Below are positions 33,672-44,220 of a DNA stretch of 64,000 nucleotides, piece by piece (position 1 is the stretch's first letter; every line of letters begins with the position of its first letter). Both the position numbers and the translations under genes were made by a program. Under the pieces are notes generated by a model that was not told where the DNA came from, did no database searches, and saw nothing but the letters and a program-made list of their open reading frames with translations. Source of the DNA: Calothrix sp. PCC 7507 (GTDB lineage Bacteria > Cyanobacteriota > Cyanobacteriia > Cyanobacteriales > Nostocaceae); contig NC_019682.1 of NCBI RefSeq assembly GCF_000316575.1, positions 620,001 to 684,000 on the forward strand, in the 5' to 3' direction.

Positions 33672-33775
33672 CTAGTACAGTGCGGCGGAAATAAGCAGCC
33701 CATTCTCAATCGCTAAAAAGCTTACTCCATATTACTTTTGATTTTTGACTTTTGACTTCCGCCTTGCGGTACTAG
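33672..33775 (-). mobile_element. MITE type A, copy 1
   Basis: The 104-bp element is bounded by CTAGTACAGTGCGGCGGAA and the imperfect inverse CTTCCGCCTTGCGGTACTAG. Read in reverse it is nearly identical to the copy at 36357-36474, differing mainly by having three rather than five GTCAAAA-type heptamers. No ORF. Its insertion, together with the next element, split a dispersed repeat. Confidence 0.85.
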
Positions 33776-33930
33776 GGTGTTGACTTTGTACGAAATTAGC
33801 TAAAAAATATCATGCAATTTTTGTGTTTACCGTAGGGGCATCGGCACTGCCGTGCCCTGATGATAACGTTAACTACGAATATTATTTTGTATGATGCATT
33901 TTGGGCTGAAAACCCTCAGAGTCAACAGCC
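33775..33930 (+). mobile_element. MITE sharing termini with the frameshift IS at 41751
   Basis: The 156-bp element begins GGGTGTTGACTTTG and ends CAGAGTCAACAGCC, flanked by TA on both sides. The complete IS at 41751-43425 has the same ends and the same TA flanks, so this is a non-autonomous relative. Its interior carries a GGGGCATCGGCACTGCCGTGCCC-like palindrome. Together with MITE A it sits between two 11-bp copies of TACGCTCAACC (33662-33672, 33931-33941). Confidence 0.75.
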
Positions 33931-34084
33931 TACGCTCAACCGAACAGGACTGGGGACTGGGGAGGTAAGGGAGACGAAGGAGACAGGAGACAAATTATAC
34001 ATTTTTTTGCCAGATTAAACACAAGGCAGGTCTATTATTTCCAAATTGTTGGACAATTGACACTGGACTCTTGACTTTTGACTC

Positions 34085-39768: not shown

Positions 39769-41610
39769 CCCGGATTTCTCACAAGCCGAAAAAAATAGGG
39801 GTCGAAAACTGCCAAAATATCTATTGCACATGAATTCCAGCAGTTTTAAGCATGACCCCCAATAAAACAGGTTGTATACCGGAACAGTTCCAATTTGAAT
39901 CAGTAAAGTCATGTCCAGTCGTAGTTAATTTCAACGGTGAGACTGTAACATCAGATGCCGGAGTAACTTTAATTGCGGAGCTAGACCGAAAAAGGGAGAT
40001 AACATCACGGCTAGCAGGATGTTTTAAAGATTACCGAGAACAAAATCGAATTGAACATTCGGTCAGTAGTTTAATTGCACAGAGAGTATATGGTTTAGTA
40101 ATGGGTTATGAAGACATCAATGACCATGAAACTTTACGTCATGATGTGATGTTTGCGCTCTCCGTTGGAAAATCCATTACTTCGGGACAAGAACCAGTTA
40201 AAATGGCCGGAAAAAGTACCTTAAATCGTCTTGAACACTGTCCAGAAGATGTTTCAAATAGAGCCGAGAGTCGATATCATCGAATTGAGCATGATGCAGA
40301 AGCAATAGAAAAACTGCTGGTTGAAATATTTTTAGAATCCTTTCAGAAACCACCACGACAAATAGTTTTAGACTTGGATGTTACTGATGACTTAGTACAC
40401 GGTAATCAAGAAAAATCTTTCTTTAACCCTTACTATAAAGGGTATTGCTATGCTCCCCTATATATTTTCTGTGGGAAACATTTATTAGCCTCAAAACTAC
40501 GTGCTTCAAATGTAGATCCGGCAGAAGAGGCATTGCCAGAATTACAACGAGTAATTAAACTAATACGTGAACGTTGGAGTAATGTGAAAATTCTTGTGCG
40601 TGGAGATAGTGCATATTCGAGAGAAGATATTATGAGTTGGTGCGAATCTCAAATCGGAGTAGATTATGTGTTTGGATTGGCACAAAACAGTCGGCTAATT
40701 CAACTGTCTCAATCAACTAAATACCGAGCTTTTCTGGAATACTCGCAAAAAATTGAAACCGTAGTAGAGTTTTTTGAAACCTTATTTACTCCGTCAGATG
40801 ACTTAAAAAAACAAGCAACAGCATTGGTTGATAGCTCAGTTTGGTATTGTTCTCTCGATTATAAAACTTTCTTAAGTTGGAGCCGTAATCGCCGCGTTGT
40901 CTCAAAAATTGAATATAGCAATGAAGGAGTAAATACTCGCTTTGTCGTGACTTCACTCCCTAGTAAAAAAGTACCGCCAGGACGGCTTTATACTCAAAAA
41001 TATTGTCCACGAGGCAATATAGAGAATTGTTTCAAGGAACAAAAATTAGAATTAAAAAGTGACAGAACTAGTACTCATACATTTGCTGGTAATCAATTAC
41101 GTCTGTGGTTTACTTCCATAGCTTATATTTTGATGAATGCCCTCCGAGAGAAATGTTTGGCAAAAACCGAACTCCAAAATGCTCAAGTTGGAACTATCCG
41201 TACAAAGTTATTGAAATTAGGAGCAATTATTACTGTTAGTCGCCGACGGGTTTTGATTGCAATTAGTAATGCTTACCCCTACAAAGAGATTTTCGCAACA
41301 GCTTATAATTATTTATCTCGGCTAAAATGCCCTGGTTAATTTTCTCTTAGTTGGAATTATAATTTTATAATTATTAGCTTAAAATTTGGGTTGTTTTACT
41401 GGATTCAACCCTAGTTTTACTATGTTTATTGTTATGTTTAAAGAGTTATTGCCTCAGTATTTAAGATTTATATTGTATGCATTTATTCTTATAGGTTAAG
41501 TCTTAATACTGCTGTATCCTGTTTTAGAATCCAATTTGATGATGTATCAATTAAATTATCCTAAATTTTGCTAATGCCAATGATTTTTTCTAACTTGTGA
41601 GAAATCCGGG
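39769..41610 (+). mobile_element. IS1380-family insertion sequence
   Basis: The inverted ends CCCGGATTTCTCACAAG (39769-39785) and CTTGTGAGAAATCCGGG (41594-41610) match perfectly over 17 bp and enclose one transposase ORF. No clear target duplication was found next to the ends, so the element may be old or one flank rearranged. After the transposase stop, about 250 bp to the right end carries no gene. Confidence 0.9.
39852..41339 (+). CDS. IS1380-family transposase
   Basis: The 495-residue DDE transposase appears intact. Visible family motifs are VVNFNGETVTSDAG near the N-terminus, LDLDVTDDLVHGNQ with the first aspartate, VRGDSAYSRED with the second, and the C-terminal RGNIENCFKEQK with the glutamate. 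The C-terminal LWFTSIAYILMNALRE segment is also typical. Its length equals the family norm, so the element may still be active. Confidence 0.93.
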   Translation: MTPNKTGCIPEQFQFESVKSCPVVVNFNGETVTSDAGVTLIAELDRKREITSRLAGCFKDYREQNRIEHSVSSLIAQRVYGLVMGYEDINDHETLRHDVMFALSVGKSITSGQEPVKMAGKSTLNRLEHCPEDVSNRAESRYHRIEHDAEAIEKLLVEIFLESFQKPPRQIVLDLDVTDDLVHGNQEKSFFNPYYKGYCYAPLYIFCGKHLLASKLRASNVDPAEEALPELQRVIKLIRERWSNVKILVRGDSAYSREDIMSWCESQIGVDYVFGLAQNSRLIQLSQSTKYRAFLEYSQKIETVVEFFETLFTPSDDLKKQATALVDSSVWYCSLDYKTFLSWSRNRRVVSKIEYSNEGVNTRFVVTSLPSKKVPPGRLYTQKYCPRGNIENCFKEQKLELKSDRTSTHTFAGNQLRLWFTSIAYILMNALREKCLAKTELQNAQVGTIRTKLLKLGAIITVSRRRVLIAISNAYPYKEIFATAYNYLSRLKCPG

Positions 41611-41830
41611 TATAAGTATTTACCCAAAGCAAGTGATGTCTATGACAAGACACTTATAGGATTAGTATTTGATTTCTGAAATACACGTAGGGTGGCTTAC
41701 ATCTTGCACCAGTTGCAATAATCCATTTTTTGTAGGGTGGGCAGTGCCTAGGGTGTTGACTTTGTTGGTTTTTAGGCGAAATTATTTCATACAATAATAA
41801 TGTCGTTGATATCTAGCAGAGTCAAAACCA

Positions 41831-42082
41831 ATGCAAGAGTTCAAAAGCCCAGTTAGTAGATTAGCAAGGTTATTTGAAAAAGGTCGAGATAACTGGAAAG
41901 AAAAAGCTCTATTGAGACATAAAAAGATTAGGGCATTAGAAATAAAGGTGAGAGATTTATTAGATTCAAGGGAAGAATGGAAAAACCGTGCGCTGGCAGC
42001 AGAGTCAAAACTGAAATCACAAAATATTGAAGGAGGGTCATCAGAAAAAAAGAAGATTGGTCAGCCGAAGGAGAAAACATAG
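41831..42082 (+). CDS. IS orfA (N-terminal part of frameshifted transposase)
   Basis: The 83-residue basic, helical protein (ARLFEKGRDNWKEKALLRHKK, LEIKVRDLLDSREEWKNRALAAES) is likely a DNA-binding coiled-coil head. If ribosomes slip -1 at 42046-42052 it is fused to the catalytic part; without slippage it terminates at the TAG at 42080-42082 and may act as a repressor of transposition, as in other ORFA/ORFB elements. Confidence 0.75.
   Translation: MQEFKSPVSRLARLFEKGRDNWKEKALLRHKKIRALEIKVRDLLDSREEWKNRALAAESKLKSQNIEGGSSEKKKIGQPKEKT
42031..42052 (+). promoter_or_regulatory. Programmed -1 frameshift site
   Basis: The slippery heptamer A AAA AAG (42046-42052) is in the orfA frame. GGAGGG about ten bases upstream could act as a Shine-Dalgarno-like stimulator. 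The downstream frame is open from 42031 through the catalytic ORF, and the residues encoded just after the site (ELNIKGHHYDAKTIQQ) look like genuine transposase sequence although upstream of any start codon. Confidence 0.75.
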
Positions 42083-43389
42083 AGACTACAGAATTAAATA
42101 TCAAAGGTCACCATTATGACGCGAAAACAATTCAGCAATCATTAGAACTTTTGATGAAATGCGGTATAAGTCTTAGAGGAGCGGAGAAAGTATTTGAGTT
42201 ATTTAACAATTCGGAATCCCAGACAAATCCTACTTTCACATGTATCAGAAAATGGTTAGGAAGAATCGGGATATATGAGTTAAAAAGGGAAAAAGAATAT
42301 CGAGATGATTGGATATTTATTGTCGATTTAACTGTGGAATTAGGGAAACAAAAAGCTTTAGTGGTTTTAGGAATTTCACAGCAGAATCTTCAGTCAAATG
42401 TGATTGATAAAAAAAGAGGAGTGTCACACAAAGATGTGGAAATTCTCGGATTAGAAATTATGGATTCTACCAGAGGAGAACTCATAGAACACCAGCTAGA
42501 TAAAATAAGTAAAAGAGTGGGTGTGCCAGTGCAAATAGTTGCGGACAATGGTAGCGACTTGGCTCGTGGAATCAAGCTATATCAACAAAAATATCCGGAA
42601 TTAATTTACACTCATGATGTAACTCATGCAATGGCTTTGCTTTTGAAATGTCAGTTAGATACGGATGATAGATATCAGTCATTTATTCAAAAGTGTAATA
42701 TTTCGAGGCAAAAACTACAACAGACAGAATTATCTTTTATATCTCCTCCTTCCCAACGTTCTCAGTGTCGTTATTTTAATGTGGAAATCTTGACAGATTG
42801 GGCAATCCATCTGTTAAATGCCCCGACAGAAACTCTCTTAAAATTAATGCCAGATGCCGAGCCTTTGATGATTACTCAGAAAATAAGAGATAAATTAGGA
42901 TGGTTAGCTGATTATGAATTAGACGTAATGAAGTGGCATCAAATGGTGTCATTAACACGCCGGGTTGAAGCCCAACTAAAACAATCAGGACTTAGTCATC
43001 AATCTCTGGACTATTTTCAGCAGAATCAATCTATATTTCTTGATAATTGTCTCTCTGATTTTCAACAGAATATTTTTGATTACTTGGCTGTTCAATGTAA
43101 CAAAATCACAGGACATGGTACTTTTTTAGCTACTTCTGATGTCATTGAATCATTGTTTGGAAAATATAAGCATTTTTCTGCACGCTGTCCATTTAAAGAG
43201 ATGGGTCAGATGTTACTAACCATCTGTTTATCTACTATCGATCTAACCACTGCTGTTGTTAAAAATGCACTCTCAACAATTAGTTTTACTTCGGTTGAAG
43301 CATGGCTAGATGAAGTTTTTGGTCAATCTACACTCTCAAAACGAAAAATGTTATTTTCGGCTGATTATGAAGACACAAAAACTGTATGA
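42053..43389 (+). CDS. IS orfB: catalytic part of the transposase, expressed by frameshift
   Basis: This frame has no good start codon of its own (first candidate is TTG at 42151), in line with expression by frameshifting from orfA. The fused product would be about 520 residues. Probable DDE residues lie in WIFIVDLTVELGKQKALVV, VQIVADNGSDLARGIK and SDVIESLFGKYKHFSA. The frame runs intact to 36 bp before the right end, so the element may be functional. I remember similar proteins as 'transposase' in many Nostoc genomes but cannot name the family. Confidence 0.8.
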
Positions 43390-43556
43390 ACTTTTACCCC
43401 GAAAAAAGGCACAGAGTCAACACCCTAGGCAGTGCCCACCATTACCTAAAACTCCTATGTTTGTGTCAGTGGGCATTGCCCACCCTACAGATCAGGAGAT
43501 TTTTTCAATAATCAAACCCGATTCCTATAGAACAATTAGCTCAAAGTTAGTAACAA

Positions 43557-43832
43557 TCAGTTGCCTTGGTTTTTTTTCTGGCGATGGTGTTCCACAAGCA
43601 ATTCTAAAACTGAGGAAATATCAATATTCTGGTCAGTTTGAATTTGGAGAACAATATCGTCCAGGCAAATATCTGAGCCTACAAACTCCATCAATCCAGG
43701 ACTTCTCAATTCCTGAAACAGTTGATATCTAATTTCCAAAGGCATCTCCCGGAACTTTTTGGTTAGTAATATAACTTTTTCTTGTTCAGCAAGATTATCA
43801 ATCAATCGGTCAACTTCTTCTAGAAACGACAT
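43557..43832 (-). CDS. Small hypothetical protein
   Basis: Starting at MSFLEEVDRLIDNL the product has 91 residues, helical and acidic (EQEKVILLTKKFREMPLEIRYQLFQEL), with a histidine/lysine tail. The frame is open 27 codons further upstream, but that part is basic and looks non-coding. No ribosome site stands out. It might be an antitoxin or remnant next to the IS. I do not recognise it. Confidence 0.35.
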   Translation of the reverse strand: MSFLEEVDRLIDNLAEQEKVILLTKKFREMPLEIRYQLFQELRSPGLMEFVGSDICLDDIVLQIQTDQNIDISSVLELLVEHHRQKKNQGN

Positions 43833-43999
43833 AGCAAAAAAAACGCACCATTTCATATTTCTGGTTTTTCTGGATCTTTTATGCGAATAGTTTAGAACTA
43901 TCATTCTGATCAAAGGAAACAGTCTCCAAGATACCTCGCTTCACTGCATTACGCTCAGTATGACAAAGTTCAGCTTTTATCCGTTTGTAGTATAGCTCA

Positions 44000-44087
44000 A
44001 GTCTACTTAAGTAGACTCAAAATTTTGAGAGATATTTAGTCATCTTCAGATGACTTTTGCTATGAGCAAGGAACTGAAGTTCCTTGC
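44000..44087. repeat. Cluster of four palindromes upstream of the TPR-CHAT gene
   Basis: In order: AGTCTACTTAAGTAGACT (44000-44017), CTCAAAATTTTGAG (44016-44029), GTCATC-TTCA-GATGAC (44039-44054), GCAAGGAAC-TGAA-GTTCCTTGC (44066-44087). From memory, similar multi-hairpin units with a following GCGGGATATGG are dispersed in Nostoc genomes. The rest of the 300-bp gap shows no gene. Confidence 0.8.
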
Positions 44088-44220
44088 GGGATATGGATTA
44101 CATCTTAAGTTCACACGTATGAACAACCTTTCACCCTTTTACATCGGCAAAATTTTTTTAGAAATCACCTAGGTTTCCTAAGGTAAGATATGTGATAAAA
44201 GCGATACAAGGTTGCGGCAG

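Follow-up and report, generated by a model that had tools for sequence, protein, structure and literature searches.

In the window, by which we mean the whole 64,000-nucleotide stretch of Calothrix sp. PCC 7507 DNA analyzed here, an insertion sequence (IS) lies within a MITE and carries its transposase in two overlapping reading frames. This arrangement raises the question of whether the gene is broken or joined by recoding, and where the element begins and ends. Comparison of copies and relatives at the sequence level establishes the boundaries, the target duplication, the target preference, the copies, the conserved split with its motif, and purifying selection. The element is probably a recently active IS of a mainly cyanobacterial family that makes its full-length transposase by -1 recoding, presumably through slippage.

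Boundaries, ends and target site

The features that delimit the element and the related short repeat in the window are as follows.

33773..33932, unstranded: 160-bp MITE with related ends; no 9-bp duplication at this copy (1 of 9 bases match)
41655..41739, unstranded: left-hand part of the host MITE, which is built from two repeats
41740..41748, unstranded: left copy of the 9-bp target duplication, GGCAGTGCC
41749..43427, plus strand: IS, 1679 bp, ends TAGGGTGTTGAC...GTCAACACCCTA
41749..41795, plus strand: left end of the IS, terminal TAGGGTGTTGACTTTG and subterminal TTCATACA block, a putative bipartite transposase site
43382..43427, minus strand: right end of the IS, inverted, terminal TAGGGTGTTGACTCTG and subterminal TTCATACA
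43428..43436, unstranded: right copy of the 9-bp target duplication, GGCAGTGCC
43437..43529, unstranded: right-hand part of the same host MITE

These boundaries are based on four genomic copies, 9-bp duplications, and empty host sites, and they revise the preliminary description, which gave 41655-43529 for the nested IS and took the TA on both sides as the target duplication. The outer span comprises the IS plus the host MITE, and TA represents the outermost bases of the IS itself, inside its ends. The matching inverted ends that had been described are present, and so is the enclosing MITE: the joined flanks of the IS gave 70 matches in the same genome, including the window's own two, near the outer coordinates given before. 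The corrected boundaries and the 9-bp duplication matter for curators of this IS family.

The host genome (7.02 Mb, single contig) contains four copies of the IS; three of them show no difference across the 1678 bases compared, and the fourth differs at 1 of 432 residues in ORFB. The element has the features of the IS class, namely, terminal inverted repeats, its own transposase gene, a target duplication, and several copies. As proposed earlier, the IS appears to be recent and intact, and mobility is likewise supported by the near-identical copies.

Empty host-MITE copies in the same genome carry the 9 bp of the GGCAGTGCC site once. The window copy and a third copy of the IS are flanked by GGCAGTGCC, the copy at 4553389 by GCCTCTACC on both sides, and the fourth copy by GGCAATGCC and GGCATTGCC. 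Among the 28 host-MITE loci given for the duplication test (L191-L218), 22 cover the insertion point; both duplication models could be aligned to 15 of these, with the 9-bp model scoring higher (barely in L198, 117 vs 114), and the remaining 7 align to the 9-bp model only. An end finder run on 22 chosen relatives located both ends in 21, with perfect 9-bp repeats in 15 of these and imperfect ones or none in 6. In Calothrix sp. NIES-4101, 16 of 24 copies have perfect 9-bp repeats. TA was therefore ruled out as the target duplication, given that a 9-bp duplication fits both the empty sites and the relatives.

The flanks of 57 out of 100 distinct IS and MITE copies matched at 8 or more of the 9 positions, compared with 6% of random pairs. 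These 57 targets usually have the form GGCNNNGCC, with G at position 1 in 53 and C at position 9 in 53. The duplicated target in the window is quasi-palindromic, GGCANTGCC, and the empty host copies mostly carry GTGGGCANTGCCCAC. The preliminary description placed the IS at the center of a palindrome; the site is indeed symmetric, but the apparent palindrome with a central TA arises from the 9-bp duplication of GGCANTGCC. The nesting of the IS in a MITE follows from the same preference, because the hairpin of the host MITE matches GGCNNNGCC. In a sister host-MITE copy, a 160-bp MITE is inserted at the same position.

The host MITE (L191-L218) is itself composite and combines two repeats, the outer one bearing TATAGGATT-like ends and the inner one TACATCTTGCACCA-like ends. 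In two loci, the flanks are inverted rather than direct repeats, namely, a 160-bp MITE copy (L103; 19/20 inverted vs 4/9 direct) and an IS copy from Nostoc sp. KVJ20 (L131; 17/20 inverted vs 6/9 direct); recombination between copies and hairpin repair are possible causes.

The subterminal block, TTCATRCA, occupies positions 38-45 of the IS ends. Of the 21 chosen relatives with both ends located, 20 have it at the left end and all 21 at the right end, with at most one mismatch (1.2% in shuffles), and inspection by eye showed it in the compared MITE ends as well. This conservation suggests that the terminal repeat and TTCATRCA form a two-part site to which the transposase would bind.

A promoter scan gave counts near those of shuffles (8 vs 6.1), and 3 terminator-like sites were counted against 0.8. 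Directly upstream of the IS, at 39852-41339, there is an IS1380-family transposase (NCBIfam NF033539, 387 bits; cut-off 180). Downstream, at 43992-44122, we detected a dispersed repeat of ~125 bp; of six related genomes searched, at least five contain numerous copies of it among the matches listed. For the stretch downstream of the IS, the matches listed contain no syntenic block in these six genomes, so that no empty orthologous site can be demonstrated there.

Two reading frames and their junction

The junction comprises four features.

41831..42082, plus strand: ORFA, 83 aa
42031..43389, plus strand: ORFB frame, open for 452 aa, encoding a DDE transposase; first possible starts TTG at 42151 and ATG at 42154
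42032..42037, plus strand: SD-like GGAGGG, 10-12 nt before the second base of the heptamer
42046..42052, plus strand: slippery heptamer A_AAA_AAG, in the ORFA frame

The overlapping frames, the in-frame heptamer, and the upstream GGAGGG are all located where the preliminary description had put them. ORFB is in the -1 register relative to ORFA, with an overlap of 49 bases before the ORFA stop. By arithmetic, the product of a -1 slip would be 74 + 445 = 519 aa; the fused relatives L022 and L025 are 520 and 521 aa long, respectively.

The transposase was found in 46 of the 388 genomes of the order. For the classification of junctions, 103 loci were grouped into 42 clusters, each typed by its first member: 20 clusters have a -1 offset, 12 a +1 offset, 8 are fused (six of 506-521 aa and two cut short), and 2 are in the same frame with a stop. 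A-runs in the ORF overlap, with 6 bases of margin allowed, were counted in 28 of the 32 split clusters; L023, L029, L145, and L146, with no usable overlap, were left out. A run of at least seven As was present in 27 of these 28 lineages, the exception being L156 (A5). Elsewhere in these 28 elements, 35,419 coding bases contain 40 runs of at least seven As, the longest being 8. By a stricter control, A7 alone is not rare at Lys-Lys pairs, because 31 of 80 such pairs outside the junction also sit within runs of at least seven As. The junction runs of this size consist of 7, 9, or 11 As, and those of 9 and 11 did not occur outside it. Of the eight +1 elements with a run, seven carry A9 and one, L038, carries A7. 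In seven split relatives (L038, L042, L044, L052, L157, L165, and L166), ORFB ends before 300 residues. In Calothrix sp. NIES-4101, one A of the A7 was lost in 2 of the 24 copies (L129 and one further locus), breaking the -1 arrangement.

Among the -1 elements with G at the end of the run, 17 were tested, and the heptamer A_AAA_AAG is in frame in every one. Following PMC4066793, an SD-like stimulator was scored at 6-17 nt upstream. Such an element occurs in 6 of 6 -1 members of the window's clade (10-15 nt upstream) and, outside this clade, in 1 of 11 -1 elements, against a background of 6-13% of positions. No downstream hairpin was found at the junction (z of +0.66 and +0.47 in the window and +0.77 and -0.18 in two relatives), and an Rfam search of 41600-43600 returned nothing up to an E value of 1. 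Downstream RNA structure is a common, but not obligatory, part of programmed -1 ribosomal frameshifting. The host genome has a tRNA-Lys(CUU) gene, and no tRNA-Lys(UUU) gene was found with two non-exhaustive patterns. In work on E. coli dnaX, tRNA-Lys(CUU) reportedly lowers slippage on AAG and, by analogy, it may weaken slippage at AAG in this host. According to PMC4066793, A_AAA_AAG is one of the best-performing motifs in E. coli, given stimulators.

The ORFB tree, for which 43 proteins were given, was built by a quick method and is unrooted, with SH-aLRT support only; L042 and L157, with fewer than 150 residues, were dropped. The window's clade includes relatives from Calothrix (L111), Fischerella (L052, an interrupted copy), Scytonema (L053), and Nostoc (L131 and L133), all of them split at A7G, along with L022 (fused) and L023 (broken). 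By tree distance, L111 and L052 are nearest to the window element, followed by the fused L022 (ORFB 72% identical), the split L131, and the broken L023. Elsewhere in the tree, the fused L025 is sister to the split L024. With broken members not counted, the tree accommodates the junction types with a minimum of six split/fused and six -1/+1 changes. Two-frame transposases are well known; here, a single family shows at least six split/fused and six -1/+1 changes around the same A-run, and such repeated change allows the evolution of recoding to be tested on natural sequences.

In pairwise comparisons, dN was below dS in 7 of 7 cases for ORFB and in 6 of 7 for ORFA, the seventh being saturated. 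The dN/dS values relative to the Calothrix element were 0.07/0.85 for ORFA and 0.15/0.73 for ORFB, and those relative to the Scytonema element were 0.23/1.06 and 0.22/1.29, respectively. Judging from these estimates, both frames are under purifying selection. The split looks older than the window copy, with lineages having apparently switched type.

Candidate mechanisms of joining

For the window element, we rank ribosomal slippage first and infer that the joining is ribosomal rather than transcriptional. The frameshift-joined transposase of the preliminary description gains support from the comparison with relatives. Ribosomes translating ORFA would reach A_AAA_AAG, where a fraction, aided by the upstream SD-like GGAGGG, would slip back one base and read on into ORFB, yielding the full-length transposase. 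This protein would consist of the long ORFA helix, a helical part predicted to bind DNA, and an RNase H-like DDE core with a helical insertion. It would recognize both ends of the IS through the terminal TAGGGTGTTGAC and the subterminal TTCATRCA and insert with a 9-bp duplication, preferably into symmetric targets of the form GGCNNNGCC, such as the one that the hairpin-like host MITE would supply.

Alternatively, the joining could be transcriptional, with RNA polymerase slipping on the A-run such that a minority of mRNAs with an extra A would give the fusion by ordinary translation. Sister lineages do have A9 or A11, and near relatives with the same A9 run have opposite offsets (-1 in L026 vs +1 in L140/L141; -1 in L044 vs +1 in L045/L176), which suits slippage in both directions; the presence of tRNA-Lys(CUU) in the host also fits this scheme. 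Transcriptional slippage on A9 has been proposed for IS elements, some of them from Nostoc PCC 7120 (PMC1088944, Baranov et al. 2005). Going by that description, the window IS resembles these elements in having two overlapping ORFs over a poly-A run, in an arrangement known also in a Nostoc, but differs in having A7 instead of 8-10 As. Against polymerase slippage in the window element, the -1 elements in its clade have retained A7 plus a following G, a run short for this process, in the exact heptamer frame, and all six of them have the SD-like element at suitable spacing. We therefore consider transcriptional recoding rather improbable here.

The two remaining readings do without recoding, and both are very unlikely. 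If a one-frame ancestor had been broken by mutation, this copy would have multiplied with the defect, being dead or moved in trans. The preliminary description held that homologs with the transposase in one frame would mark the break as a mutation, and fused relatives do exist, in 8 of the 42 clusters, including L025 and L022, the third nearest to the window element. The nearest relatives, L111 and L052, are nevertheless split at A7G, so the split is not unique to this copy; the same split and heptamer are present in the Calothrix, Fischerella (interrupted copy), Scytonema, and Nostoc relatives, and all four copies in the genome carry it. Because relatives share the split, it does not appear to be damage, and the low dN/dS of both ORFs speaks against decay as well. 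An origin of the break as a fresh mutation of this copy is unlikely and was rejected in view of the split relatives, the tree, and dN below dS. Re-initiation, whereby ORFB would be made alone and ORFA as a separate protein, would be in line with overlapping ORFs as in translationally coupled pairs, and in 8 of the 20 -1 clusters the B frame offers an ATG, GTG, or TTG codon ahead of the conserved part. The other 12 have none, the first possible starts in the window fall inside the conserved domain, and the fused relatives indicate that the two parts are able to function as a single polypeptide; independent production of ORFB is hard to reconcile with these observations.

Returning to ribosomal slippage as the preferred reading for the window element, we can tentatively extend the scheme to the whole family, although we regard this extension as somewhat less than an even bet. 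The elements might represent an undescribed, mainly cyanobacterial IS family with a hAT/Mutator-like DDE transposase, in which the mode of joining would have changed repeatedly, among -1 slippage of the ribosome where the run is A7G, slippage of the polymerase where it is A9 or A11, whichever the offset, and outright fusion, the A-run being kept by selection.

Family placement and short relatives

Six residues are invariant in 14 aligned ORFB proteins (D79, D152, D176, H179, D350, and E353, in P0002 numbering), and D79, D152, and E353 are the likely DDE residues. The AlphaFold model of ORFB (pLDDT 83) contains an RNase H-like core with a helical insertion; its fold matches were Hermes (Z = 16.4), ISCth4 (Z = 12.7), and the P element (Z = 11.7), in a search that bears only on the families in its list. 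In the model of a fused relative (pLDDT 68), used for this helix only, the part matching ORFA is predicted with low confidence to be one long helix.

Hermes, a hAT transposase, is the best structural match of the model (rmsd 5.0 over 320 residues) and has the same layout, with helices inserted into the RNase H core. The identity is 11-12%, however, and hAT elements make an 8-bp target duplication, unlike the 9 bp of the window IS; the hAT-type duplication was not observed, the relatives having 9 bp in 15 of 21 cases. Moreover, the hAT fold alone does not separate families because Mutator-type chains follow at Z = 12.7. The modeled similarity to ISCth4, of the IS256/Mutator type, is the second best and is accompanied by likeness in the 8-9 bp duplication. 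Neither PF00872 (Transposase_mut) nor the NCBIfam IS256 models matched the window proteins or 14 relatives, and membership in IS256 was rejected on these grounds. PF00872 gave nothing across the element's own genome, and a profile comparison of the transposase with one IS256-type protein from a relative revealed no similarity.

By published description, the element also resembles the ISMich2 group, which Guerillot et al. 2014 (PMC3942029) assign to the p-MULT 4 (ISKra4) family, with cyanobacteria among the hosts, 8 or 9 bp duplications, a two-ORF transposase, and a conserved predicted -1 frameshift. The window IS shares the 9-bp duplication and the two ORFs with a -1 shift, but this combination is not diagnostic of ISKra4 because other families have both. 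The ISKra4 model NF033572 is not among the NCBIfam matches of the two window proteins (up to E = 1) or of 14 relatives (up to E = 0.1), and ISKra4 membership by profiles was accordingly rejected. In the element's own genome, this model matches only two other places. A profile-profile comparison with four proteins found by NF033572 in related genomes (two above the cut-off) gave a probability of 1.1%, from shallow profiles and without a positive control.

More generally, no well-fitting family was found in Pfam or NCBIfam for the window proteins or 14 relatives, a PHROGs search of the transposase yielded none up to E = 0.1, and sequence searches of the PDB produced chance-level matches only. 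The weak matches consisted of DUF659 in Pfam (E = 0.024 at best, in 5 of 14 members) and several that were set aside: IS6 (E = 0.00072, the best of 2 of 14 relatives) and IS3 (E = 0.083, one relative) in NCBIfam, and rve (E = 0.0046, one relative) and KIP1 (E = 0.0053, the best of two) in Pfam. The profile method itself works here since NCBIfam named the neighboring IS1380 transposase at once. In kind, the element is an ordinary IS with a recoded transposase, belonging to a family beyond the available models and with an unusually changeable junction.

A text search of the open-access literature, not by sequence, brought no paper on this IS family to our notice. In named genomes, the best 80 of 85 matches comprise 78 loci, titled as cyanobacterial except for one Verrucomicrobia MAG and one Fibrobacteria MAG. 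The transposase also occurs in 16 plasmid records, eight from Persicobacter or Thiodictyon. These records label it 'hypothetical protein' (13 of 16) or list no feature (3 of 16), so the family has probably been missed in IS counts.

A link between a cyanobacterial MITE and an IS is also described, in PMC3049150, for Nezha, a MITE proposed to be moved by an IS, and for ISNpu3-like elements; the likeness to the present case is by description only. The preliminary description reported a 156-bp relative of the IS at 33775-33930. A short relative with 44 matches in the genome does lie there, but it measures 160 bp and resembles the IS mainly in the outer 16-18 bases: 18/20 and 26/40 positions match at the left end, and 16/20 and 24/40 at the right end. 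Flanks matching at 8 or more of 9 positions were found in 12 of the 27 copies measured (28 given), and the window copy is not among these. The ends of some other relatives fit the 160-bp MITE as well as or better than the IS ends do. Direct descent of the 160-bp MITE from the IS was rejected, as near-identity beyond the terminal repeat was not seen, and the case for an autonomous/non-autonomous pair within the window is accordingly weak. In the same genome, L005, a member of another MITE family, matches the right end of the IS at 39 of 40 positions, against 24 of 40 for the 160-bp MITE. This second family (L005-L020) consists of elements of 159-308 bp with a variable middle that share ~62 bp with the right end of the IS at 77-96% identity.
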